64,000 bases of DNA from Verrucomicrobiia bacterium (GTDB taxonomy: Bacteria; Verrucomicrobiota; Verrucomicrobiia; Palsa-1439): NCBI GenBank assembly GCA_022072455.1, contig JAJVHY010000024.1:1-64000 (forward strand), in the 5' to 3' direction. Within the stretch, counting starts at the first letter, position 1. Every line of letters begins with the position of its first letter. Shown here piece after piece: positions 9,105 through 62,074 of the stretch. The notes under the pieces are model-generated. The model did not search any database. It was not told the origin of the DNA and saw nothing but the letters and a program-made list of their open reading frames with translations. A program made the translations under genes and the position numbers.

Positions 9105-9145
9105 TCGACAATCCGCGGAGACACCGGGTCGGATGCGCGGCAGGA

Positions 9146-24703: not shown

Positions 24704-25510
24704 CTACCGGGGTTTCTCGGCGACCAGCCACATGTTGTCGCTGCTGGGAATGCGGTCGAGCGCGTTAAACTGCGCGACCTGCAAACCGCTCGCGACCACC
24801 ATCTGCCGGAGGTTGGCCGGCGTGAAATAATTCACGTGGTCGGGCAGCCGAATCCCGCACCACCGGTCTTTGCGGATGCGCCGGTTAAGCGAGCCGTAAT
24901 TGGGAACCTTGATGATCAACCGTCCTCCCGGTCGCAACACCCGGTAACCCTCCTGCAAGGCGCGTTGCGGCTGCACCTCGTGTTCCAAATACGCGCACAT
25001 GATCACGCCGACAAACTGATCGTTCGGAAACTGCGCAAGACCGCCGACCCCGTCATTGTGAACCACCCGGCCGCCGCGGCTGGCGAAGAGTTCCTGGGCT
25101 TGCGCGGCCAGTCGACTGGAAATTTCGACACCGTGCGGAATGTAAATCTCGCCCAGTTCCGCCGTGCGCCGACCGGAGCCGCACCCGACATCGAGAATCG
25201 CGCCCGGCCCGAAATGTTTCCGGACCAACGCCGCGAGTTTGTTGCGTTTCATCACGTGCTTGCGAAATCGTTTGATCGGCGCGTTCAGCTTGTGCAGCAA
25301 CGGCTCTTCCTTACGCCGCCGCACCTTCTCCGCCGGTAACGACTTTTCCCACGCGAGGCTGGTGTCGAGGTCCTCGTAACGCGGTGCATTTTCCAGATAG
25401 ACAAACCGGCACTTCTGGCAGGTCTTGAGCTGCCACTCATCGCGCGAATACGGATGCGCGCGGACTTGCCGGTTATCGGTGCTGCAGGCGGGGCAAACTC
25501 GAGTCGTCAT
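24704..25510 (-). CDS. Class I SAM-dependent methyltransferase with N-terminal zinc-binding cysteines
   Basis: 268 residues. The N-terminus has CPAC and CQKC pairs, a small zinc knuckle common in methyltransferases of sugar or surface-polymer pathways. The Rossmann domain begins at GAILDVGCGSGRRTAELGEI (SAM loop), with acidic EISSR after it and RVLRPGGRLIIKVPN as motif III-IV. It overlaps the carbamoyltransferase gene by an ATGA junction, so the two products probably decorate the same molecule. The acceptor is unknown. Confidence 0.88.
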   Translation of the reverse strand: MTTRVCPACSTDNRQVRAHPYSRDEWQLKTCQKCRFVYLENAPRYEDLDTSLAWEKSLPAEKVRRRKEEPLLHKLNAPIKRFRKHVMKRNKLAALVRKHFGPGAILDVGCGSGRRTAELGEIYIPHGVEISSRLAAQAQELFASRGGRVVHNDGVGGLAQFPNDQFVGVIMCAYLEHEVQPQRALQEGYRVLRPGGRLIIKVPNYGSLNRRIRKDRWCGIRLPDHVNYFTPANLRQMVVASGLQVAQFNALDRIPSSDNMWLVAEKPR

Positions 25511-27222
25511 TTCCGCACCAGGAAATCGCCGATGGCGAGGTTTTGGAGGTCGCTGCCGTAAAACATATTCAATGCGTCCTCGGGCGAACAGACCATCGGT
25601 TCACCGCGCCGGTTGAGCGACGTATTGAGGAGGCAGGGGATGCCGGTCTTGGCTTGAAAACGGGTGAGCAGCTCGTAGTACCGGCGGTTACTCTGCGGAG
25701 TGACGATTTGCGGGCGCGCGGTGCCATCTTCGTGGACGACTTCCGGTATTTTCGACTTCCACTTCTCGGCCACGTCGAATGTAAAAGTCATGTACGGCGA
25801 CGGATGCCGGGTCTGCAAGATGTCGGGCGCAACGTGGTCAATGAGCGACGGACAAAATGGCCGCCACCGTTCCCGGTATTTGATCTGCGCGTTGATCAGA
25901 TCAGCGACGCCGCGGCTTGCCGGATTGCCGAGGATGCTGCGGTTGCCGAGCGAACGCGGACCGAATTCCATCCGCCCTTGAAACCACGAAACGACTTCAC
26001 CTTTCGCGAGTAGATCGCTGGCGGTTTCGGTGATGGAAGACACTTTCTCGTACCGGACTCCGCGCTTTTTCAATGTGTCTTCGATTTCGGCGGCAGTGTA
26101 TTCGGGGCCGAGGTACGCGTGCGTCATCGGCTGGATGGAATCGCCGAACTGATGCGCGGCATAGGTCGCGGCGCCGAGCGCCGTCCCGGCATCGCTGGCG
26201 GCGGGTTGAACGAACAGCTCACCGTTCGGTTTGAGTGCGTCAATGATTCGCTGGTTGCACTTCACATTCAATGCCACGCCGCCGGCATAACAGAGTCGTT
26301 CATACCGGCGGATGCGATCGCCGAGGTAGTTCTCCATCAACGCCAGCACAACTTGTTCGAGCGTCTTCTGCACGGCGGCGGCGATGTGAACGTACGGCTC
26401 GTCAATCTCGTCGCCTTCCCGGGCTGCACCCCACAAATCCACCAACCGCTGCGCAAAAAACGTGCCCTTGCCGTCGCGCTTGTAGCGGCGCCAACCGATG
26501 CAGTTGACAAGCTTGGTGTTGATGCGGAAACCGGTCGGATCCCATTTCAGCAACCTGCTGACATCGAACTTCGTCGCGTCGCCATAGGGTGCCATGCCCA
26601 TCACCTTGAATTCGCCGTCGAGCATTTCGAAGCCGAGGAATTCCGTGACGGCCCCGTACATGCCGCCGAGCGAATCGGGCGCGTAGAATTGTCTCACGCA
26701 ATGGATCTTGCCGGCTTCGCCGTAGCCGAACCACGTCGTGCAGTATTCGCCGACACCGTCAATGCTCATGATGGCAGCGTTCTCGTAACCGGAAACATGA
26801 TACGCACTCGACGCGTGGGCGAGATGGTGTTCGACCGGGACGAATTTGATGCGCTCCGGGTCGATACCGATTTTCCGCAGCATCTCGAAGACGGCCTGCA
26901 CATTGCGCCGGTACCGCCGGTTGCCGTTGACGAGCGCCGTGAACGCCCGGTCGGGCGCATAGAGATGCCGGAGCGCGTAGTGCCAGCGCGCGGGGCCGAA
27001 CAGGCTGACCGGTGCGAAGGGATACGCGACGGCTTGAACGTCACCGGGTTTTACGCCGGCATGCTTCAAACAGAATTGCGCGGCCAACTCCGCCTGTTTG
27101 CCCTTCGCGTGCTTGTCGCGGAGAAAACGCTCTTCTTCGGCCGCTGCCACGACGTGGCCGTCCACGCACAACGCCGCGGCCGGGTCGTGACCCACCGCGC
27201 CGCCGAGACCTAGGACGACCAT
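25507..27222 (-). CDS. NodU/CmcH-type carbamoyltransferase
   Basis: 571 residues. The N-terminal ASKHA-like domain carries GHDPAAALCVDGHVVAAAEE and the metal/ATP site EHHLAHASSAYHVSGYENAA, then MSIDGVGEYCTTWFGYG. The C-terminal YrdC-like region has VVSWFQGRMEFGPRSLGNRS and YRERWRPFCPSL. The family transfers a carbamoyl group from carbamoyl phosphate to hydroxyls of sugars or antibiotics. Lying between two methyltransferases (1-bp TAATG overlap upstream, 4-bp overlap downstream), it most likely carbamoylates a surface glycan. Confidence 0.92.
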   Translation of the reverse strand: MVVLGLGGAVGHDPAAALCVDGHVVAAAEEERFLRDKHAKGKQAELAAQFCLKHAGVKPGDVQAVAYPFAPVSLFGPARWHYALRHLYAPDRAFTALVNGNRRYRRNVQAVFEMLRKIGIDPERIKFVPVEHHLAHASSAYHVSGYENAAIMSIDGVGEYCTTWFGYGEAGKIHCVRQFYAPDSLGGMYGAVTEFLGFEMLDGEFKVMGMAPYGDATKFDVSRLLKWDPTGFRINTKLVNCIGWRRYKRDGKGTFFAQRLVDLWGAAREGDEIDEPYVHIAAAVQKTLEQVVLALMENYLGDRIRRYERLCYAGGVALNVKCNQRIIDALKPNGELFVQPAASDAGTALGAATYAAHQFGDSIQPMTHAYLGPEYTAAEIEDTLKKRGVRYEKVSSITETASDLLAKGEVVSWFQGRMEFGPRSLGNRSILGNPASRGVADLINAQIKYRERWRPFCPSLIDHVAPDILQTRHPSPYMTFTFDVAEKWKSKIPEVVHEDGTARPQIVTPQSNRRYYELLTRFQAKTGIPCLLNTSLNRRGEPMVCSPEDALNMFYGSDLQNLAIGDFLVRK

Positions 27223-27848
27223 TACCGGCTCCTTTCGAAGACGGCAACGTGCAACGTGTGGATCACCGGCAGTTGCGCGAAATCTTTCACGAGGCGAAAG
27301 CCGGCTTCCTGGAAGTAGCCTTCCACCTCCGGCAAGGCCGTGATGTATTTCTGCGCGCCCTTTTTCCGCTCCCGGATTTTACGGCGCAAGGTGCTGAGCG
27401 ACGGATGAAAATAGGAGAGCACGACATTCTTGTCGGCGATCCGGCACAACTCGCGGACCACGCGCCGCCGGATGTCCGCCGTCGGGAAATGGTGGAACAG
27501 CCGGAAACTGATGACCGCGTCGAAATGCCGGTCAGCATAGGTAAATTTCTCGACGTCCTGTTGTTCCACCGTCAAGGTGAGGTTGTGGGCGGCCATGTTT
27601 TCGCGCGCGACTTCGACCATGGCCGGCGACAGATCCGCCGCGCTCATCCGGTAACCCCGGCCCGCGAGGTGAACGCTGACCCGTCCGCCACCGCACGGCG
27701 CGTCCAGAACCCGGTAATCCTTGGGGATGAGTTGGAACGCGCGGTCGAGAAGTTTCATCTCGGCGCGATGTTTGGCGTCGGGGCGCTTTTGGTATTTGCG
27801 CGCGCGTTCGGGGGTGTATTTGGTGCGGCCGGCGTAGGTGTTGTCCAT
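27222..27848 (-). CDS. Class I SAM-dependent methyltransferase
   Basis: 208 residues. YRVLDAPCGGGRVSVHLAGR is a SAM loop variant (DAPCGGGR), followed by SAADLSPAMVEVARENM with the acidic ribose-binding Asp and DAVISFRLFHHFP as motif II. The C-terminal half is helical. The start directly abuts the stop of the sulfotransferase gene (TAAATG), and its own stop overlaps the next start (TAATG), so it is the middle member of a tight sulfotransferase-methyltransferase-carbamoyltransferase-methyltransferase operon. Confidence 0.9.
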   Translation of the reverse strand: MDNTYAGRTKYTPERARKYQKRPDAKHRAEMKLLDRAFQLIPKDYRVLDAPCGGGRVSVHLAGRGYRMSAADLSPAMVEVARENMAAHNLTLTVEQQDVEKFTYADRHFDAVISFRLFHHFPTADIRRRVVRELCRIADKNVVLSYFHPSLSTLRRKIRERKKGAQKYITALPEVEGYFQEAGFRLVKDFAQLPVIHTLHVAVFERSR

Positions 27849-28697
27849 TTAATTGTATCCCAACTCCGCCAGCCGGGCGCCGGCAAGTGTTTGAAAAAGT
27901 TGCTGTTCGGTCGTGGTCAATTCGGTGCGCCAGCGGCCGATGGCGGTGGCTTTGAGCGGTTTGGTGGCGGCGACATTGGTGATGAAGTTCGTCGCGTCAC
28001 GTGGTTGTTCGTGGTACCGGAGCATGGCTGGGACAAAGTCTTCCCCGATGAACGCGCACACTTGCCGGAGCGTGGTTTCGGGTTGGTTGACCAAGTCTTC
28101 GTAGCGAACTTCGCAATAGTTCGGCTTGCCGCGCCACCGCAACCCCGCGCCGGTATCGCGCAGCCAATGTTGAATGCACGGTTCAAGCGGGCGCCGGATG
28201 CCGGTCGGAATCTTTTCGCCCTCGATCATCCGAAACCGGGGATGGGTGCGGATGGAGCACACGGTATCCCGACCGTCGCGGAGGACATGGATGAATTTGG
28301 CGTTGGGCCAGTGCGCGAAAATCCAGTCGAGATGCCGAATGTTCTGCGGGGTTTTCTCGGCCCACCGGCGTTTGCCGCGGCGGTCGGCGTAATCGGTGAG
28401 GAACAATTCGATGAAATGGGCATGATCGGTCGCCGCCTGCCGCATCTGCCAAATGGAGTCGAGGGGAATATCAAAGCGTTTGGCGAGTTTTTCCGGCAGG
28501 AAACCGCCTGTTAAGAGACTGCACTCCGGGCCGCAGGCAAGGGCGGGGTGCGAATCCAGCATCACCCGCAACAGTGTGGTGCCGCTACGCTGGCTCCCGC
28601 CAAGAATGACCGGGGACTGCGTTGAGACAAAGCGCGACGCCCGTCGGCGCAGCCAACGGGCGAGCGAAGAATTGCTGGTCACGAGCTTGGCCCCCAT
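27849..28697 (-). CDS. PAPS-dependent sulfotransferase
   Basis: 282 residues. VILGGSQRSGTTLLRVMLDS is the 5'-phosphosulfate-binding loop near 30-50, and FIHVLRDGRDTVCSIRTH is the 3'-phosphate-binding motif. WAEKTPQNIRHLDWI is typical of the Sulfotransfer_3 group. It moves sulfate from PAPS to a hydroxyl of a glycan, lipid or small molecule. It is the first gene of the glycan-decoration operon, with its own promoter candidate upstream at 28707-28735, and is divergent from the propeller protein gene. Confidence 0.92.
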   Translation of the reverse strand: MGAKLVTSNSSLARWLRRRASRFVSTQSPVILGGSQRSGTTLLRVMLDSHPALACGPECSLLTGGFLPEKLAKRFDIPLDSIWQMRQAATDHAHFIELFLTDYADRRGKRRWAEKTPQNIRHLDWIFAHWPNAKFIHVLRDGRDTVCSIRTHPRFRMIEGEKIPTGIRRPLEPCIQHWLRDTGAGLRWRGKPNYCEVRYEDLVNQPETTLRQVCAFIGEDFVPAMLRYHEQPRDATNFITNVAATKPLKATAIGRWRTELTTTEQQLFQTLAGARLAELGYN

Positions 28698-28763: not shown

Positions 28764-29771
28764 ATGCAGGTTTTCTTCAGCACCGTAGTGCGGGGCGCGC
28801 CGTTGGAGGAGGCGGGCGAACTGGTCGCGCTGGATTGGGGGACGAAGAAAATTCTCAACCGCATGCCCATCTACCCGGTGTATCCGGCGGTGTCCGATCG
28901 CAACACGCGCGGCGGCGGTCGAGGCGGACGCGGGATTGTGTTGATGCGTGATGAAGTATTTGTCGCCAGCTACCACAGTCTGCACGGCTTCGACTACAAC
29001 CTCAACGGAACGCGCACCATCTCGAACCCGAACTTCGCCGGTCTCCACGAGATCAAACTGGTCGAGGACGGGATTTGGACGAGTTCGACGGCGTTGGGAA
29101 TGGTTCAGAAGGTGGACTTTGACGGCAAGACTCTCCAGGAATGGTGGGCGCATGACGACCCGCTCGTGCAAAAGGAATTCGCGCCGGAGCCGTTCGTTGT
29201 GGACAAGACCGCCGACAACCGGCTCGCTTACCTCGAAGACTTTTCCAAACTGCATCTCAATAACGTGGAAGTCCATAATGGCCGCGTCTACGTCTGCTTC
29301 AATCATCACGGTGCGGTGCTCCGTTTGTTCCCGACGGAGATCGTCTCCCGCGACGCAGCCTTGAAGGGTTGCCACAACGGGGTGGTGACCGACGACAACG
29401 AATTGCTCATCAACGACAGTCACCGGCACACCGTTGTCGCCTTGGATCTCGGCACCGGTCAGGTGAAACGCCGGATCAACCTCATCGAATTTCCCATTGT
29501 CGCGCGGCTCGCGGAAGTGAGTGAAGTCAAACGCGTGCCGGCCTGGGTGCAGTTCCGCAATTTCGTCATGCGCAAACGCATGACCCGGCCACTCTTCACG
29601 CGTGGCCTCTGCCGGCTGGATGACAGCCGAATCCTCGTCGGCATCTCGCCGGCCTCGGTCCTGGAACTCAACTACAAGACCGGCGAGTTGCTCGATCGGT
29701 TCACCCTCTCGACCGGCGCCAACGAGTGCATCCACGGCCTTGAAGCCCGGCCGTCGGTGGACTTTCCGTGA
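28764..29771 (+). CDS. Beta-propeller-like protein of unknown function
   Basis: 335 residues without a signal peptide. Repeated strands with small turns (VFVASYHSLHGFDYNL, GLHEIKLVEDGIWTSSTAL, HLNNVEVHNGRVYVCFNHHG, CHNGVVTDDNELLINDSHRH) read like blades of a propeller, with a conserved His near the end of several blades. This is similar to uncharacterised proteins encoded beside glycosyl- and sulfotransferases. No catalytic assignment is possible. It ends in a GTGA overlap with the kinase-like gene, so the two are coupled. Confidence 0.65.
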   Translation: MQVFFSTVVRGAPLEEAGELVALDWGTKKILNRMPIYPVYPAVSDRNTRGGGRGGRGIVLMRDEVFVASYHSLHGFDYNLNGTRTISNPNFAGLHEIKLVEDGIWTSSTALGMVQKVDFDGKTLQEWWAHDDPLVQKEFAPEPFVVDKTADNRLAYLEDFSKLHLNNVEVHNGRVYVCFNHHGAVLRLFPTEIVSRDAALKGCHNGVVTDDNELLINDSHRHTVVALDLGTGQVKRRINLIEFPIVARLAEVSEVKRVPAWVQFRNFVMRKRMTRPLFTRGLCRLDDSRILVGISPASVLELNYKTGELLDRFTLSTGANECIHGLEARPSVDFP

Positions 29772-31012
29772 TTCACTTCACCAAAGACCGCGTCAGATGG
29801 GAGCTGGTCCCTGATTTCCAGCCAGTGCTTGACCGCCTTCTGGCCGACACCGGCACTGTCATCAAAGAATCGCCGACCAAACTCATCACCCGTCACGACT
29901 TCACCGGTAAGCCGATTTACCTGAAACGCTACCGCAACGGTTCCCGCGCGCTGAAGTATTACTTCCACGAGACCGAAGCCCGCCACGAATGGAATTTGGC
30001 GCAGCAAGCGATCCAACGCGGTCTCCCGGTCGTTCGCTATCTCGCCGTTGGCGAACGCTGGTCGGCCTTCGGCTGTCAGGAAAGTCTGATCATCACTGAG
30101 GGCTTTGAGGGCATTCGGCTCGATCAATTTGCAGGCAAGACCGGCGACGCTTGCCAGACCGCCCTCGCGAAGTTGGTCCGGCAAATGCACGAAACCGGCG
30201 TCTATCAATCCGATCTCCATCACAACATTTTGGTCCAACCCGAGCCGCTGACGCTCTGCCGCATTGACGTGGATCGTGGCGAAATGAAAAATGGCCCGCT
30301 CACCGAAGAAGAACGGATCGAGACGTTGGCTTACATCAACGTCTTCGTCCCATTGCTCGACAAATTCTTCGCAGTCTACCAGGCATCCACCGAGTTTCGC
30401 GCCGCTGTGATGAAACGCAGCCGGGTCCGTCGGCGCAAACTGATTGAACGGCGCGCCGCGCGGTGTGTGGCACGCAATCTTTGGTTCGACCGCCGGAGCT
30501 TTGGTGGAATGTCGTGGTGGGTGCGCCGGGAATTTCTCGATGACCGGCTCAAGCGGTTGCTCGAAAATCCTGCGGTCGCGGTGCCGGGATTTGTCGTCCG
30601 ATCGTACTCGACCGGGCACGCGGCTTGCCGGGCGTATCGGCATGCGTTTCATTTGGAACTGCTCGAAATCCCGACGCCGCGTCCCATTGCCGTCAGCCGG
30701 TATTTGATCACTGCGGAAATCCCGGGGGCAACGAATCGCTCGATGGATGTCGAAATCGCCCGCCGCGCTGGCCGGTTACTGGCGCAATTGCATGCAAACG
30801 GTTTTCGCCATCCACAGTGGCAACCGGGCGACCTTGTCGCGGATGTTACCGGTATAGTGTATCTCGTCGGTCTAGCCGGGCTGGAATATCAAAAAGTGGT
30901 CACCCCCGAAGCCGCTGCCGCCGACCGGGAACGCTGGGCGAGTCAGTTCAGCAACGTGACTGACCGGGCAGCGTTCGATGACGCCTACGCCAACGCGTCG
31001 AGCGGGAAATAG
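29768..31012 (+). CDS. Tandem WaaP/Kdo-kinase-like protein, second domain degenerate
   Basis: 414 residues in two kinase-like halves. The first has the lysine region PIYLKRYRNGSRALKYYF, HETEARHEWNLAQQAIQRGL, then ETGVYQSDLHHNILVQ and CRIDVDRGEM, the catalytic loop and metal Asp of LPS-kinase-like folds (with Gln where a His is usual). The second half repeats the order but its loop reads NGFRHPQWQPGDLVAD and the metal site VYLVGLAGLEY, so the catalytic Asp and Asn and the 'D.D' are lost. Compare the intact homologue at 33262. It probably phosphorylates a surface sugar with domain 1 only. Confidence 0.8.
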   Translation: MIHFTKDRVRWELVPDFQPVLDRLLADTGTVIKESPTKLITRHDFTGKPIYLKRYRNGSRALKYYFHETEARHEWNLAQQAIQRGLPVVRYLAVGERWSAFGCQESLIITEGFEGIRLDQFAGKTGDACQTALAKLVRQMHETGVYQSDLHHNILVQPEPLTLCRIDVDRGEMKNGPLTEEERIETLAYINVFVPLLDKFFAVYQASTEFRAAVMKRSRVRRRKLIERRAARCVARNLWFDRRSFGGMSWWVRREFLDDRLKRLLENPAVAVPGFVVRSYSTGHAACRAYRHAFHLELLEIPTPRPIAVSRYLITAEIPGATNRSMDVEIARRAGRLLAQLHANGFRHPQWQPGDLVADVTGIVYLVGLAGLEYQKVVTPEAAAADRERWASQFSNVTDRAAFDDAYANASSGK

Positions 31013-31049
31013 CATTGCGTCAATCTTTATGAGTCCGTAAGTTCTTCCT

Positions 31050-32270
31050 ATGCGAATCGGCACTAAAATCTTCATCATTCTCGCAGTTTTGGCTGGTGGC
31101 GGCGCGCTCGGTTTCTACTTTTATCAGGCACCACCTGCCCAGTTGGTTTTATCAACGGACACCGTCTGGGCAACGACCGCCGGCAATTCGCTGATTATTT
31201 CCAACCGGGTGGTCGTACCGGCGGGCGCCACGCTGACAATCAAACCGGGAACAACTGTATTATTCCGGCCCCGCGCCGGGCTGACCATTCGCGGGCGGCT
31301 GTTGGCCGAAGGCGCCGAGCAGAGCCGGATCCGTCTGGCGCGGCCGCGCGTGCCGTTTAAACTCTGGGCGGGCATCCGCTTCGAAAATGCAACCAACGAA
31401 AACCGGCTAACCCACATTGATATTGAATCCGCCGGCTCGGAAGGCCTTGCGATTTACGCGACCAATGCCACAGTCACCATCGAACACGCCCGATTCTTCG
31501 GCGCACTCCGTGGCGTCATTCGCACAGTTGATTCCTCGCTCATCCTACGCCGGTCAGTTGTTGATCCGGTCGGCGACAACGAGATCATCAACGCCCGCCG
31601 GCCGCCCGTCGGGGGCGTGTTCCTGATCGAAGGCAACACGTTCTATCCCAACTTTGGGTACAAGGATGTGATTGATGTGGCCGATTGTCATCCCCCGCGC
31701 GCCACGCCGCGGTTCCTCGACAACCTCTTCCTCGGCAGCGGCGATGATGGAATCGACGTGGACAAAGGTATCGCCTACATCGCTGGCAACATTTTCGTGA
31801 ACTTCAACCTGAGCGGCCACAAAAAATACGCCGACGGCATTTCCTCTGGCGGCGGCGGCAAACTCATGGTCACCAACAATCTATTCGTCGGCAACGATGC
31901 CGCCGTCATGATTTCCGAAGGCGGGCACGTCACCTTGCTCAACAATACGTTTTACCGGAATCGCAACAATGTCGTCTCCCTCGACGAACGGAATAGTGGG
32001 CCGGGCGGCGTCACGATGCGGGATTGTCTCCTCTGGCAGAACGGCCCGACTTTTGAGTTTGCCGAACGCGCGACCGAGTTGGTGGTCAGTAACTCCTACT
32101 TGCCCGAAGCCGCCCAATGGCCGGGGCAGGGGAATCAGACGGGCGATCCACGGTTTCTCGACCCGGCGAACGGCAATTTTCAACTGGCCGCAGACTCCCC
32201 GGCCGCCGGCCGCGGGGCCACAATCGATGCGCAGCGGTTTCCCCGGGGCCTGACCGTCGAGTGCCGGTAA
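31050..32270 (+). CDS. Membrane-anchored right-handed beta-helix protein
   Basis: 406 residues. An N-terminal signal anchor, IFIILAVLAGGGALGFYFY, is followed by repeated short strands with Asn ladders: VPAGATLTIKPGTTVLF, GLTIRGRLLAEG, LMVTNNLFVGNDAAVMISEG and VTLLNNTFYRNRNNVVSLDE. This is the parallel beta-helix of Beta_helix/NosD-like proteins. SGDDGIDVDKGIAYIAGN near the middle and 'GDPRFLDPANGNFQL' near the end are common in secreted beta-helix proteins. It could bind or cleave polysaccharide, or be structural. It is located between the two double-kinase genes. Confidence 0.85.
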   Translation: MRIGTKIFIILAVLAGGGALGFYFYQAPPAQLVLSTDTVWATTAGNSLIISNRVVVPAGATLTIKPGTTVLFRPRAGLTIRGRLLAEGAEQSRIRLARPRVPFKLWAGIRFENATNENRLTHIDIESAGSEGLAIYATNATVTIEHARFFGALRGVIRTVDSSLILRRSVVDPVGDNEIINARRPPVGGVFLIEGNTFYPNFGYKDVIDVADCHPPRATPRFLDNLFLGSGDDGIDVDKGIAYIAGNIFVNFNLSGHKKYADGISSGGGGKLMVTNNLFVGNDAAVMISEGGHVTLLNNTFYRNRNNVVSLDERNSGPGGVTMRDCLLWQNGPTFEFAERATELVVSNSYLPEAAQWPGQGNQTGDPRFLDPANGNFQLAADSPAAGRGATIDAQRFPRGLTVECR

Positions 32271-33239
32271 CTACTCGACTTCGCACAACACGCGAAAGCC
32301 GCGCTTCTCGAACAAGTCCGCCGGATTGTTCCCATCCCGGGCGCACGACTTGATATCCCGGGTGCGCGTGTCCCAACCCGAACCCTTGTCCACCCGCATT
32401 TTGCCGGTGGGCGGGCCGGTGGGATCAATTTGTGGCGTGTTCGGAAACCAGTCGAACCAATCGTTCACCCATTCCCACGCGTTGCCGACCATGTCATACA
32501 ACCCCCACGGATTGGCCGGATACACGCCAACCGGCGCCGAGTACCGGTAGCCATCTTCGCTGTACGTCTCCTGCGCTTCACGGATCCCGCCGACATTGCA
32601 CATGTGGCGGTCCCACGAATTATCGCCCCAGTAGAGAATCGTCGTCGTGCCGGCTTTGCAGGCATATTCCCATTCGGCTTCGGTCGGCAGCCGATATGTC
32701 CGCCCATCCTGTTCCGACAACCACCGGCAAAACTTCTGACTCTCCTGCCACTTCACGCCGATAACCGGATGATTGGTGAATCCGTTCCCGCGCTGATAGG
32801 GCTCGCGCCGTTTCTTAAACGACGGGTCATACTCTTCAAATTCCGCCAATGTCGTCTCATAAGCCGCCAAATAATACGGCTTGGTCAAAGTGACCGGCTG
32901 ACCAATTTTGCGGTACGCGAACATCCGTTTCGCCTGCCGCTCCGTCAACCCCTGCCAGAAACTTCCCGGCTCGATCCGGACAAACTTCATCCCGCGCGAA
33001 TTGACGAAGTAGGTGATATTCGTCCAGACAATGCCGGCGGGCGTAGCGGTCTCGACTTCGACGGTTACATTCGACCACGCCGTCGGCTTCGGCCAGCGCG
33101 ACCGATCCGCCGCCGGCAAGTCCTGCAAACTTGACACTGGATCACTGGGCCAGAGATACCGGTTGCTGTAATTGATGTACGCAAATATTCCACCGCCGGT
33201 CACAATGACCGCCGCAAGAATGAGAATTGCCCGTTTCAT
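32271..33239 (-). CDS. Membrane-anchored SUMF1-fold (FGE-like) protein, active-site cysteines absent
   Basis: 322 residues with an N-terminal anchor (AILILAAVIVTGGGIFAYI). From about 85 the FGE-sulfatase fold is clear: MKFVRIEPGSFWQGL, YLAAYETTLAEFEEY, HPVIGVKWQESQKFCRWLSE, TYRLPTEAEWEYACKAGTTT and GNAWEWVNDWFDW. In the closing strand KGSGWDTRTRDIKSCARDGN the Cys pair expected in formylglycine-generating enzymes is missing. It is therefore more likely a binding or other SUMF1-family protein than a sulfatase activator. It converges tail to tail with the beta-helix gene, with no gap. Confidence 0.85.
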   Translation of the reverse strand: MKRAILILAAVIVTGGGIFAYINYSNRYLWPSDPVSSLQDLPAADRSRWPKPTAWSNVTVEVETATPAGIVWTNITYFVNSRGMKFVRIEPGSFWQGLTERQAKRMFAYRKIGQPVTLTKPYYLAAYETTLAEFEEYDPSFKKRREPYQRGNGFTNHPVIGVKWQESQKFCRWLSEQDGRTYRLPTEAEWEYACKAGTTTILYWGDNSWDRHMCNVGGIREAQETYSEDGYRYSAPVGVYPANPWGLYDMVGNAWEWVNDWFDWFPNTPQIDPTGPPTGKMRVDKGSGWDTRTRDIKSCARDGNNPADLFEKRGFRVLCEVE

Positions 33240-33261
33240 GCGGCGACTCTAAGATGCCGTT

Positions 33262-34644
33262 GTGACGCGCTACAAGAAAAATGGCATCGCCTGGGAAATC
33301 GCGCCGGACTTCGCTGACCGGCTCGACGCAGTTCTGGCTGCGCCCGGCCAGCCCGTCAAACAAACCCCCACGAAATTGGTCACGGAACACCGGCTCGGCG
33401 ACGCGATCTACTACGTGAAACGGTACCGCAACCCGGGTCTCCGCCCACTCAAGTTTCACTTCAAGCCCGCCGAAGCCCGCAACGAATGGCAACTGGCCGG
33501 CCAATACGCCGCCCTCGGCATCCCCTTGGTCCGCCATCTCGCCCTCGGCGAACGCCGCAACATGCTCGGCATCGCAGAGAGCATTCTCATCACCGAAGGG
33601 TTTCCCGGTCGCCCGCTCAGTCGCTCCGGTCACGATCAACGTCGCGAAGTCCAAATCGCCCTCGGCCGGCTGCTCCGCCTGATGCACGACAAAGGCGTCC
33701 TTCAACCCGATCTCCATCACAACATCCTCGTCCACCCGGCCACCTACGAACTTCGCCGCATTGACGTCGATCGCGGCGAACTCAAACCGGCGTTGACCGA
33801 CACCGAACGCATCGCCAACCTCGCCTGGCTTAACATCGGCGTCCCGTTGAGCGATGACTTCTTTACCGCCTACGGTGCCGACGCGGCTTTCGTCCAAAGC
33901 GTCCGTCAGGAAGCCGAAACCACCGGCCGCGCCCGGCGACTCCGGCAAGCTCGGCGCGCCCTCGGCACCAACCTGCGCTTCGAGCGTCAACGCCACGGCG
34001 AACTCAATTGGTTCGTCCGGCTCGACACGCTCAACGACCAAGTTCGCGCTTTGCTTGCCGACCCGGACGGTGCGCTGGAGAAGTGTTCCCGGCTTTTCAA
34101 GACCGGTCCCAACCGGCAATCCACCGTCGGCGCATTCAATGGATTTATCCTCAAACGCTACAATCAGAAAAACCGGTGGAACTACCTCAAAGACCTGTTC
34201 CGCCCCTCACGAGCCTTTCGGGCTTACCGGAGCGCGTATCACCTCGAATTACTCGGGATCGCCACACCGCGCCCGGTCGCAGCCGCGGAACGCCGGTGCC
34301 TCCGAGTTTTACTCCACAGCTACCTCGTCACCGAAGAGATTGCCGGTGCAACCGACTTGCGTCGGGCCGAGACGCTGGACGTTGAAATCCTGCGCAACGC
34401 CGGCAAGCTGATCGGACAACTCCACGCCGCCGGTTTTGCGCACGGCGATCTGAAAGAAACGAACATCGTCTGGGACAAAACCGGCAAGGTCTATCTGCTC
34501 GACCTCGATGGTTTGGAGTTTTGCGGCCAAGTTTCACGGGCTCAAGCAGAGCAGGATTTGGAACGGTTCGAGCGCGGCTTGGCGCAATGTCAATTGGTGA
34601 CAGCCGGTCACCGCGAGGCGTTTCGGAGTGGTTACGCCGGCTAG
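33262..34644 (+). CDS. Tandem WaaP/Kdo-kinase-like protein with two apparently intact domains
   Basis: 460 residues from GTG 33262. Domain 1 parallels the protein at 29768: YYVKRYRNPGLRPLKFHF, KGVLQPDLHHNILVHP and LRRIDVDRGEL. Domain 2 has FILKRYNQKNRWNYLKDLF, then HAAGFAHGDLKETNIVWDKT and GKVYLLDLDGLEF, a full HGDxKxxN loop and DLD metal site. Both halves therefore look able to bind ATP and metal. The likely role is phosphorylation of sugars in an LPS-like or other surface glycan in the cytoplasm before export. It overlaps the convergent hydrolase gene by 4 bp. Confidence 0.82.
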   Translation: MTRYKKNGIAWEIAPDFADRLDAVLAAPGQPVKQTPTKLVTEHRLGDAIYYVKRYRNPGLRPLKFHFKPAEARNEWQLAGQYAALGIPLVRHLALGERRNMLGIAESILITEGFPGRPLSRSGHDQRREVQIALGRLLRLMHDKGVLQPDLHHNILVHPATYELRRIDVDRGELKPALTDTERIANLAWLNIGVPLSDDFFTAYGADAAFVQSVRQEAETTGRARRLRQARRALGTNLRFERQRHGELNWFVRLDTLNDQVRALLADPDGALEKCSRLFKTGPNRQSTVGAFNGFILKRYNQKNRWNYLKDLFRPSRAFRAYRSAYHLELLGIATPRPVAAAERRCLRVLLHSYLVTEEIAGATDLRRAETLDVEILRNAGKLIGQLHAAGFAHGDLKETNIVWDKTGKVYLLDLDGLEFCGQVSRAQAEQDLERFERGLAQCQLVTAGHREAFRSGYAG

Positions 34645-36224
34645 TCCAAGTATCCCAAATTCCGCAACCGCTCTTCCACTTTGGCGGAATCTTCCTCGGA
34701 ATATTCCGGTTGTGTGTTCGTGACGGCGGCGGCCGGTTGCGATTCGCGGCGGGGTGGGTACGTCGCCAGAAACTCCGCGGTTAGCGCGGCAGTGATCGGT
34801 TCGGCATCAATGTCGTCACCAATCGGCAGGGCGAACAACTCCAACACGGTCGGCGCAATGCTCTCGATGGCTTGCGGCCCAAACTGCGCGCCGGGTTTCA
34901 CATTCGGTCCGTGAACCAGCACGACGCCCTCCGGTTCGTGTCCGCCGTCGCGCAGGACATGTTTGTTTTGCGTGAACCAACCGCCGGCCGAGATGTCCCG
35001 GCGAAAACTCGGCGGTACGTCGTAGGGTTTATGTAAAATGGCCACCAGATCGGGGCCGTCTTCGGCGTGCGGGCCCTGGTACAAATCCTCCGCCTCATGA
35101 ACCTGCGCGAAAATCTCCGTGCCGTCCGCCGCCTTCAACTGCAGTAATTCCTGCGCGACCTTGTCCCGCAACGCGCGCCATTCCGACTCGGGGACAATGC
35201 CTTCGGGGTATTTGCCGGCGCGGTTGATGCGGATGCCGGTCGCGCGGGATTCCAGCGGGTCGGCCCAGACCTTCGTCTGCGCCCAATCCACGAGGCCGTA
35301 CTTCGTGTCAATTGGCGCGCCGAGTTTCGTGCGCCACGACCGTGGCAACTTGCCGAGGAGCCCGCTTTTTTTCTTCAGGTAGCCGCGCTCGACGAGCCAG
35401 CGGTTCGTGTTGAAGAACGTCTGCGGAATTGGCCCGAAGCCATGATCCGACACCATGATCAGGGTGCAGTCCTTGCCGCCGGCTTCGAGGACGCGGCCGA
35501 TGTGCCTGTCGAGTTGCCGGAATAAATTTTCGACTTCCTCCGCAATCCGGCCTTTCGGCGCGATGGCGGGATCGGTGAACTTCCAGCCAAAATGCTGGAT
35601 GCGGTCGAGCACGAGCCAGACGGCCATCATGAAATCCCAGGACTGCTCACGCATCAGTTGCACCGTCGCGTCAGCATGACATTGCATCACCCGGCAGTTC
35701 TCTTCGACGAACGCCAGCATCTCGCGCTCGGAAGCGGTCTCCGGGTAATTCACGACATCGATGACAAAGTCTGGGAACTGTTGCGCCAGTTCCGCCGGGA
35801 AGGTCTTCATCCCGGTCGTCTCCGCCGCAAACGCGTCGCTGGTGATGAAGCCGTTGACCGGGTAAACGGGCGAACTCATCGGCACATTGAACGCGCCGGT
35901 CCGTTTCCCGTGCGCATTGAGGCGTTGCCAGATCGTGGGCGCATGTACGTCGTGCGAAGTGTTCAGCCTGCGCTGATAGTAATCGCCCCGAGGCGTGTGC
36001 CGGAAATGGTAGATGCCGTGTTTGCCGGGATTCGTTCCGGTCACGAGGCTCGCCCAAGCCGGCGGCGTGAGGGCCGGGGTGGTCGAGTTCAGGATGCCGG
36101 AAGCGCCCTCCGCCAGCAGTTTTCCCAACACCGGCATGACCCCGCGATCCACCCAGCGCGACAGGTTGGTCCACGTCGCGCCATCGAGGCCGAGAATCAA
36201 AACACGTTTTGCTGGTTCAGGCAC
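34641..36224 (-). CDS. Alkaline-phosphatase-superfamily phosphodiesterase/nucleotide pyrophosphatase-like protein
   Basis: About 527 residues from GTG 36224 (the frame is open further upstream but unlike the family). RVLILGLDGATW supplies the first metal Asp. NSTTPALTPPAWASLVTGTN has the nucleophile Thr position, and TLIMVSDHGFGPI and HVLRDGGHEPEGVVLVHGP bring the remaining Asp/His metal ligands. It is a two-metal hydrolase of phosphate or sulfate diesters or monoesters. No signal peptide, so cytoplasmic. It is divergent from a related gene at 36249; the two may act on the same class of substrate. Confidence 0.87.
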   Translation of the reverse strand: MPEPAKRVLILGLDGATWTNLSRWVDRGVMPVLGKLLAEGASGILNSTTPALTPPAWASLVTGTNPGKHGIYHFRHTPRGDYYQRRLNTSHDVHAPTIWQRLNAHGKRTGAFNVPMSSPVYPVNGFITSDAFAAETTGMKTFPAELAQQFPDFVIDVVNYPETASEREMLAFVEENCRVMQCHADATVQLMREQSWDFMMAVWLVLDRIQHFGWKFTDPAIAPKGRIAEEVENLFRQLDRHIGRVLEAGGKDCTLIMVSDHGFGPIPQTFFNTNRWLVERGYLKKKSGLLGKLPRSWRTKLGAPIDTKYGLVDWAQTKVWADPLESRATGIRINRAGKYPEGIVPESEWRALRDKVAQELLQLKAADGTEIFAQVHEAEDLYQGPHAEDGPDLVAILHKPYDVPPSFRRDISAGGWFTQNKHVLRDGGHEPEGVVLVHGPNVKPGAQFGPQAIESIAPTVLELFALPIGDDIDAEPITAALTAEFLATYPPRRESQPAAAVTNTQPEYSEEDSAKVEERLRNLGYLD

Positions 36225-36234
36225 GCGGCAGTGG

Positions 36235-36240
36235 TATAAC
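36235..36240 (+). promoter_or_regulatory. Candidate -10 box for the gene at 36249
   Basis: TATAAC matches the -10 consensus at five of six bases and lies 8 bases before the ATG at 36249, with no Shine-Dalgarno between. No convincing -35 box is seen 16-18 bases upstream. The position matches the nearly leaderless arrangement seen at three other genes in the window. Confidence 0.35.
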
Positions 36241-36248
36241 AATGCGGC

Positions 36249-37646
36249 ATGCCCGGCAACATTGAAAAAGTTCTGATCATCGGTCTCGACTGCGCGGAGC
36301 CGTCGCTGGTGTTTGCGAAATGGCGCGCGCATTTACCCAACCTCGCCCGACTGATGGAGCAGGGGGCATGGACGACGATGAATTCCACCACGCCGCCAAT
36401 CACCGTGCCGGCGTGGTCGTGCATGATGTCGAGTAAAGACCCCGGTACACTCGGCATCTATGGCTTCCGCAACCGGAAAGACTTTACCTATGCCGGCTTG
36501 ACGTTTGCGACTTCGACGGCGGTAAAAGAACCGCGGCTGTGGGACATTCTCGGGAAGGCCGGCAAACAATCCATTGTCATCGGAGTGCCCGGCACCTTCC
36601 CGGTCACGCCGGTCCGCGGCGCGATGGTGAGTTGTTTTCTCACGCCCGACCCGGCCACGAGCCAGTACACGTTCCCGGCCAATCTGCGCGACGAGATCGA
36701 TGCCGTGCTCGGGAAGAATCAGTACATGGTGGACGTGTCGGATTACCGGACCGAGAACAAACAGGCCGTGCTCGACGAGATTTATCAGATGACCGACCGG
36801 CGCTTCCAGTTGGCGAAGCATTGGGTCAAAACCAAGCCGTGGGATTTCTTCATGCTCGTCGAGATGGGAGTGGATCGCATTCATCACGCGTTTTGGCGCT
36901 ACTTCGACCCCGAACACCGTAAGTACGAACCCGGGCCGTTCACCAACGCGATTCGCGATTACTACACCCACGTGGATAAACTCATCGGCGAACTCGTTGC
37001 GGAGTTGCCGGCGAAGACGGCGGTCTTGGTTGTCTCCGATCACGGCGGCAAACGAATTGATGGCGGCATTGCGGTCAATGAATGGCTGATACGCGAAGGC
37101 TATCTCGTCCTCAGCGAATATCCCAAATCGCCGGCTCCGCTCGCCAAACTCAAAGTGGACTGGACGAAGACGAAAGTCTGGAGCGAAGGCGGCTACTACG
37201 CCCGCGTCTTCATCAACAGGCAAGGGCGCGAACCGCAAGGCATTGTGTCACCGGCGGAGTACGAACCTTTGCGCGACGAGTTGATCCGCAAACTCGAAGC
37301 CCTCGGCGATGAGACCGGCAAGGCGATTGGGACGAAAGTGTTCCGGCCGGAACAGATTTACAAAAAGTGCAACGCCATCCCTCCGGACTTGGTCACGATT
37401 TTCGGCAACCTGTATTGGCGCAGCATCGGCAGCGTCGGCTACAACGCCGTCCACGTCTTCGAGAATGATACCGGGCCCGATGACGCTAACCACGCCCAAG
37501 ACGCCATGTTCATGCTCAGCGGCCCCGGCATCCCCGCCGGCCAGATCGCTCCGATTGACTTACTCGACGTCGCGCCAACAGTTTTGAAATTGTTGGGTCA
37601 GCCGATCCCGGCGGACATGCAGGGGCGCGCGGTTGTTGGGGTATGA
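36249..37646 (+). CDS. Alkaline-phosphatase-superfamily phosphodiesterase-like protein
   Basis: 465 residues. KVLIIGLDCAEPSLVF carries the first metal Asp. MNSTTPPITVPAWSCMMSS contains the conserved nucleophile Thr/Ser region, VEMGVDRIHHAFWRY and AVLVVSDHGGKRIDGG give further Asp/His ligands, and VENDTGPDDANHAQDAMFML-like sequence the last His. It is a homologue of the divergent neighbour at 34641 but clearly diverged, so the pair is an old duplication. Its 3' end overlaps the metallophosphoesterase gene by ATGA. Confidence 0.87.
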   Translation: MPGNIEKVLIIGLDCAEPSLVFAKWRAHLPNLARLMEQGAWTTMNSTTPPITVPAWSCMMSSKDPGTLGIYGFRNRKDFTYAGLTFATSTAVKEPRLWDILGKAGKQSIVIGVPGTFPVTPVRGAMVSCFLTPDPATSQYTFPANLRDEIDAVLGKNQYMVDVSDYRTENKQAVLDEIYQMTDRRFQLAKHWVKTKPWDFFMLVEMGVDRIHHAFWRYFDPEHRKYEPGPFTNAIRDYYTHVDKLIGELVAELPAKTAVLVVSDHGGKRIDGGIAVNEWLIREGYLVLSEYPKSPAPLAKLKVDWTKTKVWSEGGYYARVFINRQGREPQGIVSPAEYEPLRDELIRKLEALGDETGKAIGTKVFRPEQIYKKCNAIPPDLVTIFGNLYWRSIGSVGYNAVHVFENDTGPDDANHAQDAMFMLSGPGIPAGQIAPIDLLDVAPTVLKLLGQPIPADMQGRAVVGV

Positions 37647-38386
37647 GAGTTTGGGTTTTAAGCGATTTGCACATGGAGTTCGGCGGGATTGACCTTCCCA
37701 AAGTGGACGCCGATGTGGTGATTCTTGCCGGCGACACGAATCTCGGGTTGGCCGGCGTGCGGTGGGCGAAAGCGACGTTCGCGATGCCGGTGCTCATGGT
37801 GTTGGGCAACCACGAGTATTATGACAACACGTTTCCCCGTCTGATTCAGACCTTGAAAAAGGAATGCCGGGGGTCACAGATCACGATTCTCGAAAACAGC
37901 GCGGTGACGATGAATGACGTGACGTTCCTGGGTTGCACCTTGTGGTCGAGTTTTGCCGGTGTGCCGACGACGATGATGTCGCACATCTTGGTGGCGCGGG
38001 GGATGAACGATTACCGGTCGATTCGCCGCTACCCGGATTTTCGGAAACTGCAACCGGCGGACACAATCGCGGCGCATCAAGAGTCGGTGGATTGGCTGGG
38101 AAAGGCGTGCCGGCTACACGATGGGAAAAAGAAAGTGGTGATCACGCATCACGCGCCATCGTTACGCTCGGTGCCTGATTTGCCCAAGTACGAAGTCCTC
38201 GCGCCGGGTTACGCGACGAAGTTGGACGCGCTGGTCGAGGAGTCGAATGCCGCGTTGTGGGTGCATGGGCACATTCACGTCATCAACGATTACCTCATCG
38301 GCACCACGCGGGTGTTGAGCAATCCGCGCGGCTACCGGCATGAGCCCGTGCCGGGGTTCAGTCCTGACTTGGTGATCGAGGTTTAA
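37643..38386 (+). CDS. Calcineurin-like metallophosphoesterase
   Basis: 247 residues. The five metallophosphoesterase motifs are in order: VWVLSDLHMEF (D.H), VVILAGDTNLG (GD), MVLGNHEYYD (GNHE), VVITHHAPS (H) and WVHGHIHVINDY (GHxH). A binuclear metal site hydrolysing a phosphomonoester or diester is expected. It overlaps the upstream AP-superfamily gene by 4 bp, so two phosphate-ester hydrolases are made from one message. It ends in a 4-bp tail-to-tail overlap with the kinase gene at 38383. Confidence 0.92.
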   Translation: MRVWVLSDLHMEFGGIDLPKVDADVVILAGDTNLGLAGVRWAKATFAMPVLMVLGNHEYYDNTFPRLIQTLKKECRGSQITILENSAVTMNDVTFLGCTLWSSFAGVPTTMMSHILVARGMNDYRSIRRYPDFRKLQPADTIAAHQESVDWLGKACRLHDGKKKVVITHHAPSLRSVPDLPKYEVLAPGYATKLDALVEESNAALWVHGHIHVINDYLIGTTRVLSNPRGYRHEPVPGFSPDLVIEV

Positions 38387-39150
38387 GTATTCCACACCCG
38401 TTTGTACTTCGGCGTGCGGCTCAGCAGGCGGACGATCTTCGGCCAGAGTTTGCGCAACCACGCCTTGTCGGTTTTGCCGGGGGCGTAGGCTTTGTAAACC
38501 CGGAAGACGTCTGTCCACGAACACTTCCCGTGGGCGCGCACGGAGAATGCCAGCGCCGAGGCGTCTTTCAGATACCAGCGTTCCCGGTGCGGTCGCGGGC
38601 CGAGGACGCGTTGGAGGTCGATCAAATAGAGTTTTCCGTCGGCGACGAAAATGTGTTTCAGGTACAGATCTTTGTGGATGAAGCCGGCCTCGCGGAGTTG
38701 CCGGGCCAACGCGCCGATTTGCCGGAGCAGTTGCCGGCGCGCCGTCAGGTCGAGGGTTTGGATGTATTCATCCGCCGCAACGCCACCGGCGATCTCTTGT
38801 TGGAGGAGAAAACTCGCGAAGCCATGCCGGCCGAGCGCGACCGGGGTGGCGGTGTGGAAACCGTGTTGCCGGAGGAGATGGATTTTGCGCCATTCGCGGG
38901 CGGCTTCGTCGTCGAACCCCGGCCAGTGGAGGAGGCGGAGGAGTTTTTTGCCGGGGGAAAGATAGCCGGTTTCGTAGCGTTTCAAGTACATGGCGGTGCC
39001 GGCCACGACCACGCGAATCGTCGACCGTCCCGGCACGGCGCGCACTACGTTCGTCGCCGGCAAGTTCATGAACTGGTCGAAGGTTGCGAGCCCAGCAGCC
39101 TTAAGTTGTTCCTCCATCGCACTGAATTCAATAAGTGTGGCGGCTTTCAC
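38383..39150 (-). CDS. WaaP-like lipopolysaccharide kinase family protein
   Basis: 255 residues from GTG 39150, which overlaps the stop of the upstream kinase gene (GTGA); ATG 39117 is an alternative. VAGTAMYLKRYETGYL holds the ATP-binding lysine, and EAGFIHKDLYLKHIFVADGK is the catalytic loop (HKD). LYLIDLQRVLG is the metal-binding site, with Asp. The pattern is that of Kdo/heptose kinases acting on LPS inner-core sugars. It is paired with the next kinase; the two may phosphorylate different positions on one glycan. Confidence 0.88.
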   Translation of the reverse strand: MKAATLIEFSAMEEQLKAAGLATFDQFMNLPATNVVRAVPGRSTIRVVVAGTAMYLKRYETGYLSPGKKLLRLLHWPGFDDEAAREWRKIHLLRQHGFHTATPVALGRHGFASFLLQQEIAGGVAADEYIQTLDLTARRQLLRQIGALARQLREAGFIHKDLYLKHIFVADGKLYLIDLQRVLGPRPHRERWYLKDASALAFSVRAHGKCSWTDVFRVYKAYAPGKTDKAWLRKLWPKIVRLLSRTPKYKRVWNT

Positions 39151-39869
39151 CGGCGAGCCTCGCGGATGCGTTTGAGTTGCCGGTCGCGTTGGGGGGCGGC
39201 GAGCGCGAGAACGCGGCGGAGGAGTTGTTTGTCGTCGTCGGTCAGCCGGTCATGCTGCCGGTAGCGGAGGAAGAAGCGGAGGCGTTGTGACCGGCGAAAG
39301 AAAAACGGGGCGGCAGCATCGAGGGTGGCGAGATCATGGGCAGTGTCGCCGGGGCCGCCTTTGTGGGCATCGAGCAGGAAAAAGCGGTTGCCGGATAAGA
39401 TGATGTTGCGCCAGTAGAGGTCGTGGTGGACGAAGTTGTGGGCGTGGAGGCGGCGGACGTAGTCGGCCAATTCAAGCGGGATCTGCCGGTGCTCATCGAG
39501 GGAAACAGCGGCCGGTATCGCTTCACTGACGAGGCAGGAGCGGACGACCCAGCCGGCGCGGCGTTCTTCACCGTAGGCAACCGGGGCGGGGGCGTCGAAA
39601 CCCCACTCGCGGAGGCGGACGAGGTTTTCGTATTCGCGGCGGGCTTTGGTTTTGCCGAACAGCGTGCCGCGCAACGCGCCGCTCCATAGTTGACCGAAAT
39701 TATTCGCCCAATACTTTTTGATGAAGACTGTTTTGCCGCCCAGTTCAACCCGGCGAACTTCAGTGGAGTTGCCGCGCTTGACGACCGTGCCGGCGTCGAG
39801 CGTGTAGAGGTTAGCCGGCAGAATCTCCTGCCAGCCGGGCGTGACGACGAGTTTCGAAGTGCCTAACAT
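39147..39869 (-). CDS. WaaP-like lipopolysaccharide kinase family protein
   Basis: 240 residues from ATG 39869; ATG 39887 is also in frame but would overlap nadD. KTVFIKKYWANNFGQLW bears the ATP lysine, HAHNFVHHDLYWRNIILSGN is the catalytic loop (HHD...N), and FFLLDAHKGGPGD is the metal site (LLDA in place of the usual DxD). The rest is the basic C-terminal helical region of the family. It is transcribed divergently from nadD across 16 bp and coupled to the kinase gene downstream by a 4-bp overlap. Confidence 0.88.
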   Translation of the reverse strand: MLGTSKLVVTPGWQEILPANLYTLDAGTVVKRGNSTEVRRVELGGKTVFIKKYWANNFGQLWSGALRGTLFGKTKARREYENLVRLREWGFDAPAPVAYGEERRAGWVVRSCLVSEAIPAAVSLDEHRQIPLELADYVRRLHAHNFVHHDLYWRNIILSGNRFFLLDAHKGGPGDTAHDLATLDAAAPFFFRRSQRLRFFLRYRQHDRLTDDDKQLLRRVLALAAPQRDRQLKRIREARR

Positions 39870-39885
39870 CCGCCGCTGTTGTATC

Positions 39886-40479
39886 ATGGCGACCTTGAAA
39901 CGGAAAATCGGAATCCTTGGCGGGACGTTCAATCCCATCCATCTCGGCCATCTGCTGATCGCGCAGGACGCGTTGGAACAGGTGGGCTTGGAGCGCGTGA
40001 TTTTCATCCCGTCCGCCACGCCGCCACATAAACCGCTCGCCGGCAAGGTGGCGGCGGCGGACCGGCTGAAGATGGTTAATCTGGCGATTGCCGGCGATCC
40101 GCGGTTCAGCGTGGCGGATCTCGAAATCCGCCGGGGCGGGCGGTCGTACTCGGTGGAGACGGTGGCAGAATTGCGCGGCCACTATCCTGACCTGGAGTTC
40201 TATTTCATCATCGGCGCGGATTCATTGAATGAATTGCATCTGTGGCGGGAGGCGGACCGGCTGGTCCAGTTGTGCCGGTTTATCGCGGTGACGCGCCCCG
40301 GTTATCCACCGCGGCCGGCCAAGAAGTTGACCGGCTTGCGTTATGAACTGCTGAACGCTCACCCCTGTGAGATCGCCTCGCGGGAGATTCGCGCGCGTAT
40401 TGCCGGAAGGGATTCCATCCGCTATCTTGTGCCCGAAGCCGTTCGCCGCTATATCGAAAGAAAGAAACTATATCTTTGA
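39886..40479 (+). CDS. nadD: Nicotinate-nucleotide adenylyltransferase
   Basis: 197 residues from ATG 39886 (GTG 39841 is an upstream alternative). KIGILGGTFNPIHLGHLLIA is the nucleotidyltransferase GTFxPxHxGH motif, and FIPSATPPHKPL and FIIGADSLNELHLW are NadD-specific. The closing IASREIRARIAGRDSIRYLV gives the S-x-x-x-I-R motif. It joins NaMN with ATP to make deamido-NAD. It overlaps rsfS by TTGA, the common nadD-rsfS pairing. Confidence 0.96.
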   Translation: MATLKRKIGILGGTFNPIHLGHLLIAQDALEQVGLERVIFIPSATPPHKPLAGKVAAADRLKMVNLAIAGDPRFSVADLEIRRGGRSYSVETVAELRGHYPDLEFYFIIGADSLNELHLWREADRLVQLCRFIAVTRPGYPPRPAKKLTGLRYELLNAHPCEIASREIRARIAGRDSIRYLVPEAVRRYIERKKLYL

Positions 40480-44300: not shown

Positions 44301-44946
44301 CACGAGCCAGACGCCGACCAACTATCTGCTCAGTTGCCGGACGCGTGCCAATGGCAGTCTGCTTTGGGAAAAAGGTTTTGCCGGCCCGATTCCCGCCACG
44401 CCCGAATTATTTGACGTCAATGACGACGGGATTCTCGACGGGCTTGCCCTCTGCGATGACGGTTATTTGTACGCGGTGGATGGCCAGACTGGTGCCGGGC
44501 TTTGGACCTACAAACACACCGGCAAGATCACGCGCGCCGGTAACGCCATCGTCGGCGGCATCCTTGCCACCACCGAAGGCAACATCACCCGGCTCGATCG
44601 CAAGACAGGCAAACCACAATGGACTTACGCACTGCGCGAGCCGGTGTTGGGCGCGCCTGTGCTGGTGGAGATCAACGGGATTTCCGCCGTCATGGTGGGT
44701 ACGATGAAAAACCGGGTGCACTGCCTCCGAACAAACGGGGAAGGCGGACTGTGGAATTTTCAGGTGACCGGTCCGATCCGCTATTGCGCCCCGTTGCCGG
44801 TACCGAATCCCAGATCGCCCAACCCGTATGTGATCATCGGCACAGGCCCGCCGGAGAACGGCTTGTACTGCATCAGCGGCGCGGCCCCGCCAGTCGCGGG
44901 GCGCGGTTGGTCTGGTCCTTGGAACGAAGTCACCGCCCACCCGTAA
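41317..44946 (+). CDS. Membrane Ser/Thr protein kinase with PEGA-like and beta-propeller sensor region
   Basis: 1209 residues. Kinase at about 42-310: [16 protein letters not shown] (P-loop), ALKVL (Lys73), [15 protein letters not shown] (Asp166), KVTDFGLAK (Asp184) and [10 protein letters not shown] (activation end). One membrane helix near 332-353 places the rest outside. A PEGA-like segment ([20 protein letters not shown]) follows, then at least 600 residues of PQQ/FG-GAP-like propeller repeats, recurrent 'D.D.DG..D..VG' and 'G.LLW....G' units. The outer part probably senses a ligand and the kinase signals inwards, possibly to the divergent FHA protein. Confidence 0.9.
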
Positions 44947-62067: not shown

Positions 62068-62074
62068 AGTTGGG

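Follow-up and report, generated by a model that had tools for sequence, protein, structure and literature searches.

In Pseudomonas aeruginosa, PA5006 is described in passages of PMC8707732 as a putative lipopolysaccharide (LPS) kinase within the gene order PA5009–PA5005, and an excerpt of PMC5348532 places it under LPS phosphorylation, as a hypothetical protein. Two-hybrid results in the same passages of PMC8707732 indicate that PA5006 self-associates and that a fragment of it, residues 300–493, bound PA2576 in a screen. Part of PMC9866376 (Table 5, from a transposon study cited there as ref. 29) scores it as essential in all three conditions (three plus signs). Here, we analyzed two genes likely to be of this kind in a Verrucomicrobiia bacterium (GTDB lineage Palsa-1439; assembly GCA_022072455.1), located in a stretch of 64,000 nucleotides (contig JAJVHY010000024.1, positions 1 to 64,000, forward strand; hereafter the window). 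Both encode proteins with two tandem WaaP/Kdo-kinase-like domains: protein A (29768..31012, + strand, 414 amino acids, GTG start) and protein B (33262..34644, + strand, 460 amino acids, GTG start). We put the probability at roughly 70% that A and B are inner-core LPS sugar kinases of the PA5006 kind and that the second domain of A serves, without catalysis, as a scaffold or docking part.

The sequence-only reading had proposed these two open reading frames (ORFs) as pairs of WaaP-like domains, which was borne out by Pfam and by alignment. Both ORFs were found at the positions given there, and A and B aligned end to end with 41% identity, as full-length paralogs. The Pfam model PF06293 (Kdo/WaaP) scored 51.7 bits in A and 100.2 bits in B, both above the gathering cut-off of 21.3, with two matching stretches in B and a single one, over domain 1, in A, the second domain of which was recognisable solely via B. 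Scores for the NCBIfam equivalog models were below the cut-offs, at 45.3 (A) and 91.4 bits (B) against 142 for KdkA, and at 20.8 and 27.4 bits against 170 for RfaP. A PDB sequence search returned weak kinase matches only (best E 2e-4 for B and 0.26 for A). Domain 1 of A comprises residues ~1–235 and has K53, D149, N153 and D167, and domain 2 comprises residues ~240–414. In B, the corresponding Lys, Asp, Asn and Asp are present in both domains.

Domain 2 of A (residues 241–414; 30488..31009, + strand) is predicted to be a pseudokinase, with kinase homology and loss of the catalytic Lys and Asp and of the metal-binding Asp. In the alignment, the beta-3 Lys is replaced by Arg, the catalytic Asp by Gln, the loop Asn by Asp and the DFG-type Asp by Gly, and two segments are missing, one of ~24 residues in the region of the glycine-rich loop and one of ~12 residues following beta-3. 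The motifs quoted in the sequence-only reading were all found, domain 2 of A having RHPQWQPGD and VYLVGLAGLEY and domain 2 of B having HGDLKETN and LLDLDG, which contains the quoted DLD. The AlphaFold2 model of A (mean predicted local distance difference test score [pLDDT] 94.2, predicted template modelling score 0.88) showed domain 2 as a compact, reduced kinase-like fold without the first two N-lobe strands, which are present in domain 2 of the AlphaFold model of B (mean pLDDT 95.2). Residue losses and reduced fold thus agree with the pseudokinase assignment made in that reading. A frameshift or sequencing error as the origin of the dead domain was rejected, since the reading frame stays homologous to B as far as the C-terminus and the lost residues are spread over the domain.

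Among solved structures, the best match of domain 1 was the heptose(I) kinase WaaP/RfaP (6dfl), for both A (Z 17.0, 206 residues, root-mean-square deviation [rmsd] 3.7, with the full A model as query) and B (Z 16.6, 206 residues, rmsd 4.0). WaaP shares the fold of domain 1 and the Pfam family with A and B, but it is a single-domain protein with 22–25% identity to them in the structural alignments, and both score under the RfaP cut-off. Domain 2 of B matched PRPK/Bud32 (Z 18.0, 190 residues, rmsd 3.2), having the fold of Bud32/PRPK and RIO-type kinases, although A and B were far under the Bud32 equivalog cut-offs. No KEOPS partner was found among the neighbouring genes tested with Pfam.

The tandem layout, which had been thought unusual, is widespread, near-universal in Pseudomonadaceae and ordinary. 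When one genome per species was scanned with a profile, the domain 2 motif turned up in 310 stretches, 276 of which encode relatives of the tandem query; an earlier genome scan with B alone as query gave 18 pattern matches, none of them confirmed. The 80 loci retained out of the 276 belong to Gammaproteobacteria, Betaproteobacteria, Desulfobacterota, Opitutales and one acidobacterial group, and an ORF of at least 380 amino acids was present in 79 of these 80. Having been picked by the domain 2 motif, the 80 loci are biased to intact domain 2 and are uninformative on loss frequency. A homologous tandem protein was encoded in 115 of 119 Pseudomonadaceae genomes (E ≤1e-20), nearly always at full length. 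It was rarer in the window's class, which takes in Coraliomargarita, with matches in 17 of 384 genomes (E 1e-30), of which 14 have the tandem gene or its truncated form and three have the domain 2 half only; scan locus L046 has the same sequence as the protein of class genome G033. Searches of an open-licence library, with the terms used, listed no title or abstract start on the double domain or a pseudokinase form. Opitutales-type clusters (L036:6560-14879 and L037:8331-14018) each combine one tandem gene with several surrounding genes for single WaaP-like kinases, and one cluster has a WapO homologue (61% identity).

Catalytic residues of domain 2 were then compared across the family. An alignment of 91 tandem proteins (79 scan loci and 12 other rows; L052, with 317 amino acids at a contig edge, was left out) has the domain 2 catalytic Asp in 89 rows and the DFG-type Asp in 89. 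All 60 Pseudomonadaceae proteins that were aligned, out of the 115 and not motif-picked, retain Lys, His, Asp, Asn and Asp in domain 2, as well as Asp, Asn and Asp in domain 1; the domain 1 Lys column of this alignment was misaligned (Gly or Ala throughout) and left unscored. In the window's class, also not motif-picked, the domain 2 Asp, Asn and Asp are present in 12 of 15 tandem proteins, and P0018 has Arg in place of the domain 2 Lys. The three exceptions are two pseudokinases and one truncation, namely A, the protein of L173 (genome G464) and the truncated P0016 (genome G021). In domain 2 of the L173 protein, the loop reads HQGVIASD and the Lys is replaced by Arg, and the DFG-type Asp is present. 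L173:1486-2826 is the second case of a tandem kinase whose domain 2 has degenerated, and Pfam did not recognise it at E 0.001. Because G464 belongs to a different family from the window genome and two congeneric genomes (G412 and G456) have intact copies, domain 2 catalysis was lost at least twice. The tandem gene of G021, which is of the same family as the window genome, stops after the N-lobe of domain 2 (L033:5347-6393), and no catalytic motif was found downstream of it. Two similar N-lobe deletions unite A with P0016, whereas A is joined to B by the tree and by a shortened loop in domain 1, described below; a clade of A and P0016 was not rejected (approximately unbiased test, p-AU 0.206).

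The phylogeny of 55 domain sequences, reconstructed without an inferred root, placed all 25 domain 2 sequences in one group (support 96/93), in which A and B are found with domain 2 of Pseudomonas, Thauera and Desulfocicer. A and B were sisters in both domains (97/86 and 100/95). Domain 1 was divided into a window type, split off by a 100/99 branch, a P0017/P0018 type and a Pseudomonas type, and the branching order inside the window type was not resolved in a smaller domain 1 tree. Since the domain 2 sequences group together and domain 1 occurs in three types, domain 2 is the common part of the tandem proteins, and domain 1 may have been exchanged or may have diverged beyond reach.

The Lys, Asp, Asn and Asp of domain 1 are present in 91 of the 91 aligned tandem proteins. 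The catalytic loop of domain 1 is DLHHN in both A and B, which gives an Asp–Asn spacing of 4 compared with 5 in the other 89 rows. This loop, one residue short and overlooked in the sequence-only reading, is common to both paralogs and was found neither in the nearest relative, P0012, nor in P0016. Since it is short in both proteins, domain 1 activity is to be assumed in neither. The Gln previously singled out as standing two or three residues before the domain 1 catalytic Asp, in the place of a His, is indeed present, exactly two residues before it, but 78 of the 91 rows have the same residue; it is the family consensus and was rejected as a special feature.

The comparison with PA5006 was made through another Pseudomonas, strain Ga0074129 (locus L091). 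There, the tandem gene (7842-9350) comes after genes for WaaP and a WapP/WapQ-like kinase and before a carbamoyltransferase gene, and its product has two Kdo stretches in Pfam. The order PA5009–PA5005 of P. aeruginosa, as given in table passages of PMC8005017, is the same, with PA5006 in the place of the tandem gene, except that the stretch from WaaP to the tandem gene is shorter in L091 by one gene for a single-domain kinase; the second single kinase of L091 could be either WapP or WapQ. Each of these L091 proteins has a counterpart in the window: WapO matches the product of 25507-27222 with 56% identity over the whole length, WaaP that of 38383-39150 (29%, E 2e-12), and the WapP/Q-like kinase that of 39147-40046 (32%, E 5e-24), while the match of the tandem protein is to domain 2 of B (37% over 183 residues, E 5e-25). 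With PA5006-type proteins, as represented by L091 and the 60 Pseudomonadaceae homologues, A and B thus have in common two Kdo/WaaP domains per chain, the domain 2 clade and a tandem gene beside WaaP-type kinases and WapO. They differ in that their domain 1 falls in another group and has a loop one residue shorter, and in that there are two copies instead of one, one of them with a dead domain 2. The PA5006 fragment of residues 300–493 should match domain 2, and since it bound PA2576, a domain of this sort can serve in binding.

The WapO-like, WaaP-like and WapP/Q-like genes and the two tandem genes form one set within 15 kb. On the - strand upstream of A are the genes for the WapO-like carbamoyltransferase (NodU/CmcH family, 25507..27222), an S-adenosylmethionine-dependent methyltransferase (27222..27848) and a sulfotransferase family protein identified by Pfam (27849..28697). 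They are followed by the gene for a beta-propeller-like protein of 335 amino acids with a weak PQQ_2 match (28764..29771, +), the stop of which overlaps the start of A by 4 bases. Between A and B, Pfam identified a right-handed beta-helix protein (31050..32270, +) and an FGE/SUMF1-like domain protein (32271..33239, -); an FGE-like gene is also located beside the truncated tandem gene of G021. Downstream of B are two type I phosphodiesterases of the alkaline phosphatase superfamily (Pfam; phosphodiesterase 1, 34641..36332, -; phosphodiesterase 2, 36249..37646, +), followed by the single-domain kinases of WaaP/RfaP-like (38383..39150, -) and WapP/WapQ-like type (39147..40046, -), both assigned by Pfam, the L091 match and the tree. 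The phosphodiesterase genes overlap head to head by ~84 bases at their 5' ends as called, and the pair is kept in two genomes of the same family, G005 (locus L044) and G048 (locus L041). These genomes keep the block of WapO, phosphodiesterases 1 and 2 and the WaaP-like kinase without the tandem genes, with 77–80% identity to the window for WapO (that of L041 runs off the available stretch) and 77–78% for phosphodiesterase 2. In G005, the slot of the tandem genes is occupied by a gene for a DUF3413-sulfatase protein of 631 amino acids, a layout also found in PbgA/YejM, a regulator of LPS synthesis. The window genome encodes one WaaA-type Kdo transferase and four heptosyltransferase-family proteins, one of them ~7 kb past the end of the window on the same contig.

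Further along the window, 41317-44946 (+) encodes a protein of 1209 amino acids in which the N-terminus looks, by eye, like a Ser/Thr kinase, together with a long beta-propeller stretch of PQQ-like type. The region 48438-63454 (-) comprises an unusually large array of ~12 overlapping or abutting ORFs of 340–450 amino acids that resemble URO-D/MtaA-type corrinoid methyltransferases. One array ORF was tested (56937-58061) and matched PF01208 with 77 bits; an MtaB-type methanol-corrinoid methyltransferase is encoded at the array end (62078-63454, 558 bits), and a RACo-type corrinoid activator at 44952-46505 (in 44949-46505, -).

The family, the layout, the gene set and the absence of every catalytic residue from domain 2 of A form, at the level of sequence, the firm part of the reading as PA5006-like core kinases. 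Together with the WapO-, WaaP- and WapP/Q-like enzymes, A and B would carbamoylate and phosphorylate the core of 3-deoxy-D-manno-octulosonic acid (Kdo) and heptose at the inner membrane, on its cytoplasmic side, and export would follow. B would phosphorylate core sugars with ATP, in domain 2 and probably also in domain 1. A would have arisen by duplication and would have at most one working domain, domain 1, its domain 2 surviving as a non-catalytic scaffold or docking part. Several points weigh against this picture. The passages of PMC8005017, PMC8707732, PMC9866376 and PMC5348532 give no reaction or assay for PA5006, and the link to PA5006 is one of position, length and family, read via another Pseudomonas. 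A and B match PA5006 in layout, domain 2 and gene set, but domain 1 of the window proteins groups separately from the Pseudomonas type, so they are best regarded as a variant and not as strict orthologs. With its shortened loop, domain 1 of A and B may be weakly active or inactive. Nothing in the described Pseudomonas cluster corresponds to the sulfotransferase, beta-helix, FGE-like and phosphodiesterase genes. The terminal branch of A in the domain tree is 1.23 changes per site in domain 2, compared with 0.17 for B (0.74 and 0.59 in domain 1), which points to relaxed or altered selection on domain 2.

That last point also bears on whether the second domain of A is a remnant in decay, without a function of its own, A being, if active, a single-domain kinase through domain 1. 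Partial decay has to be taken seriously in view of the faster evolution of this domain and of the G021 relative, where the tandem gene does not extend past the N-lobe of domain 2; we give it appreciable weight while holding it less likely than a kept domain. The frame of domain 2 is open to the end at 44% identity, however, and only 2.6% of 2000 neutral simulations run to the same identity were stop-free (mean 3.6 stops, indels not counted). GC content by codon position is not flat (0.678, 0.50 and 0.667), and the model shows the compact, reduced kinase fold. For this domain, a kept scaffold and slow decay are both possible readings, and the role in regulation or substrate binding suggested in the sequence-only reading is possible too. 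It is unlikely that A is wholly non-catalytic and serves B or the single kinases as partner or activator in a kinase–pseudokinase pair: the two genes lie in one cluster, the Asp–Asn spacing of 4 is confined to A and B (2 of 91 rows), and the self-association reported in passages of PMC8707732 would fit, but domain 1 of A retains its Lys, Asp, Asn and Asp, and B has the same short loop, which by itself is therefore no mark of a dead A. Less likely again is another glycan or a secreted polymer as substrate in place of the LPS inner core. The neighbours foreign to the described Pseudomonas core cluster would suit it, but WapO-, WaaP- and WapP/Q-like genes are all in the window, and the related genomes keep the WapO–phosphodiesterase–WaaP block even without tandem genes, with the DUF3413-sulfatase gene in the slot in G005.

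Beyond PA5006-like core kinases with a scaffold domain in A, a broader scheme is conceivable, though we hold it doubtful. In tandem core kinases, domain 1 would be the fixed catalytic part and domain 2 would repeatedly become a pseudokinase; the duplicated pair in the window would have split roles, with A, through its pseudokinase domain, as a scaffold for, or regulator of, B and the cluster's single kinases, and with the odd short domain 1 loop in both. The layout, the main surprise of the sequence-only reading, turns out to be ordinary. What appears to be new is a modest point, the recurrent loss of domain 2 catalysis while the key residues of domain 1 persist, together with the domain 1 catalytic loop, one residue short in both A and B. 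PA5006 is scored as essential in the part of PMC9866376 cited above, yet it is without a stated reaction, and the two-domain view lets the roles of its domains be tested directly.

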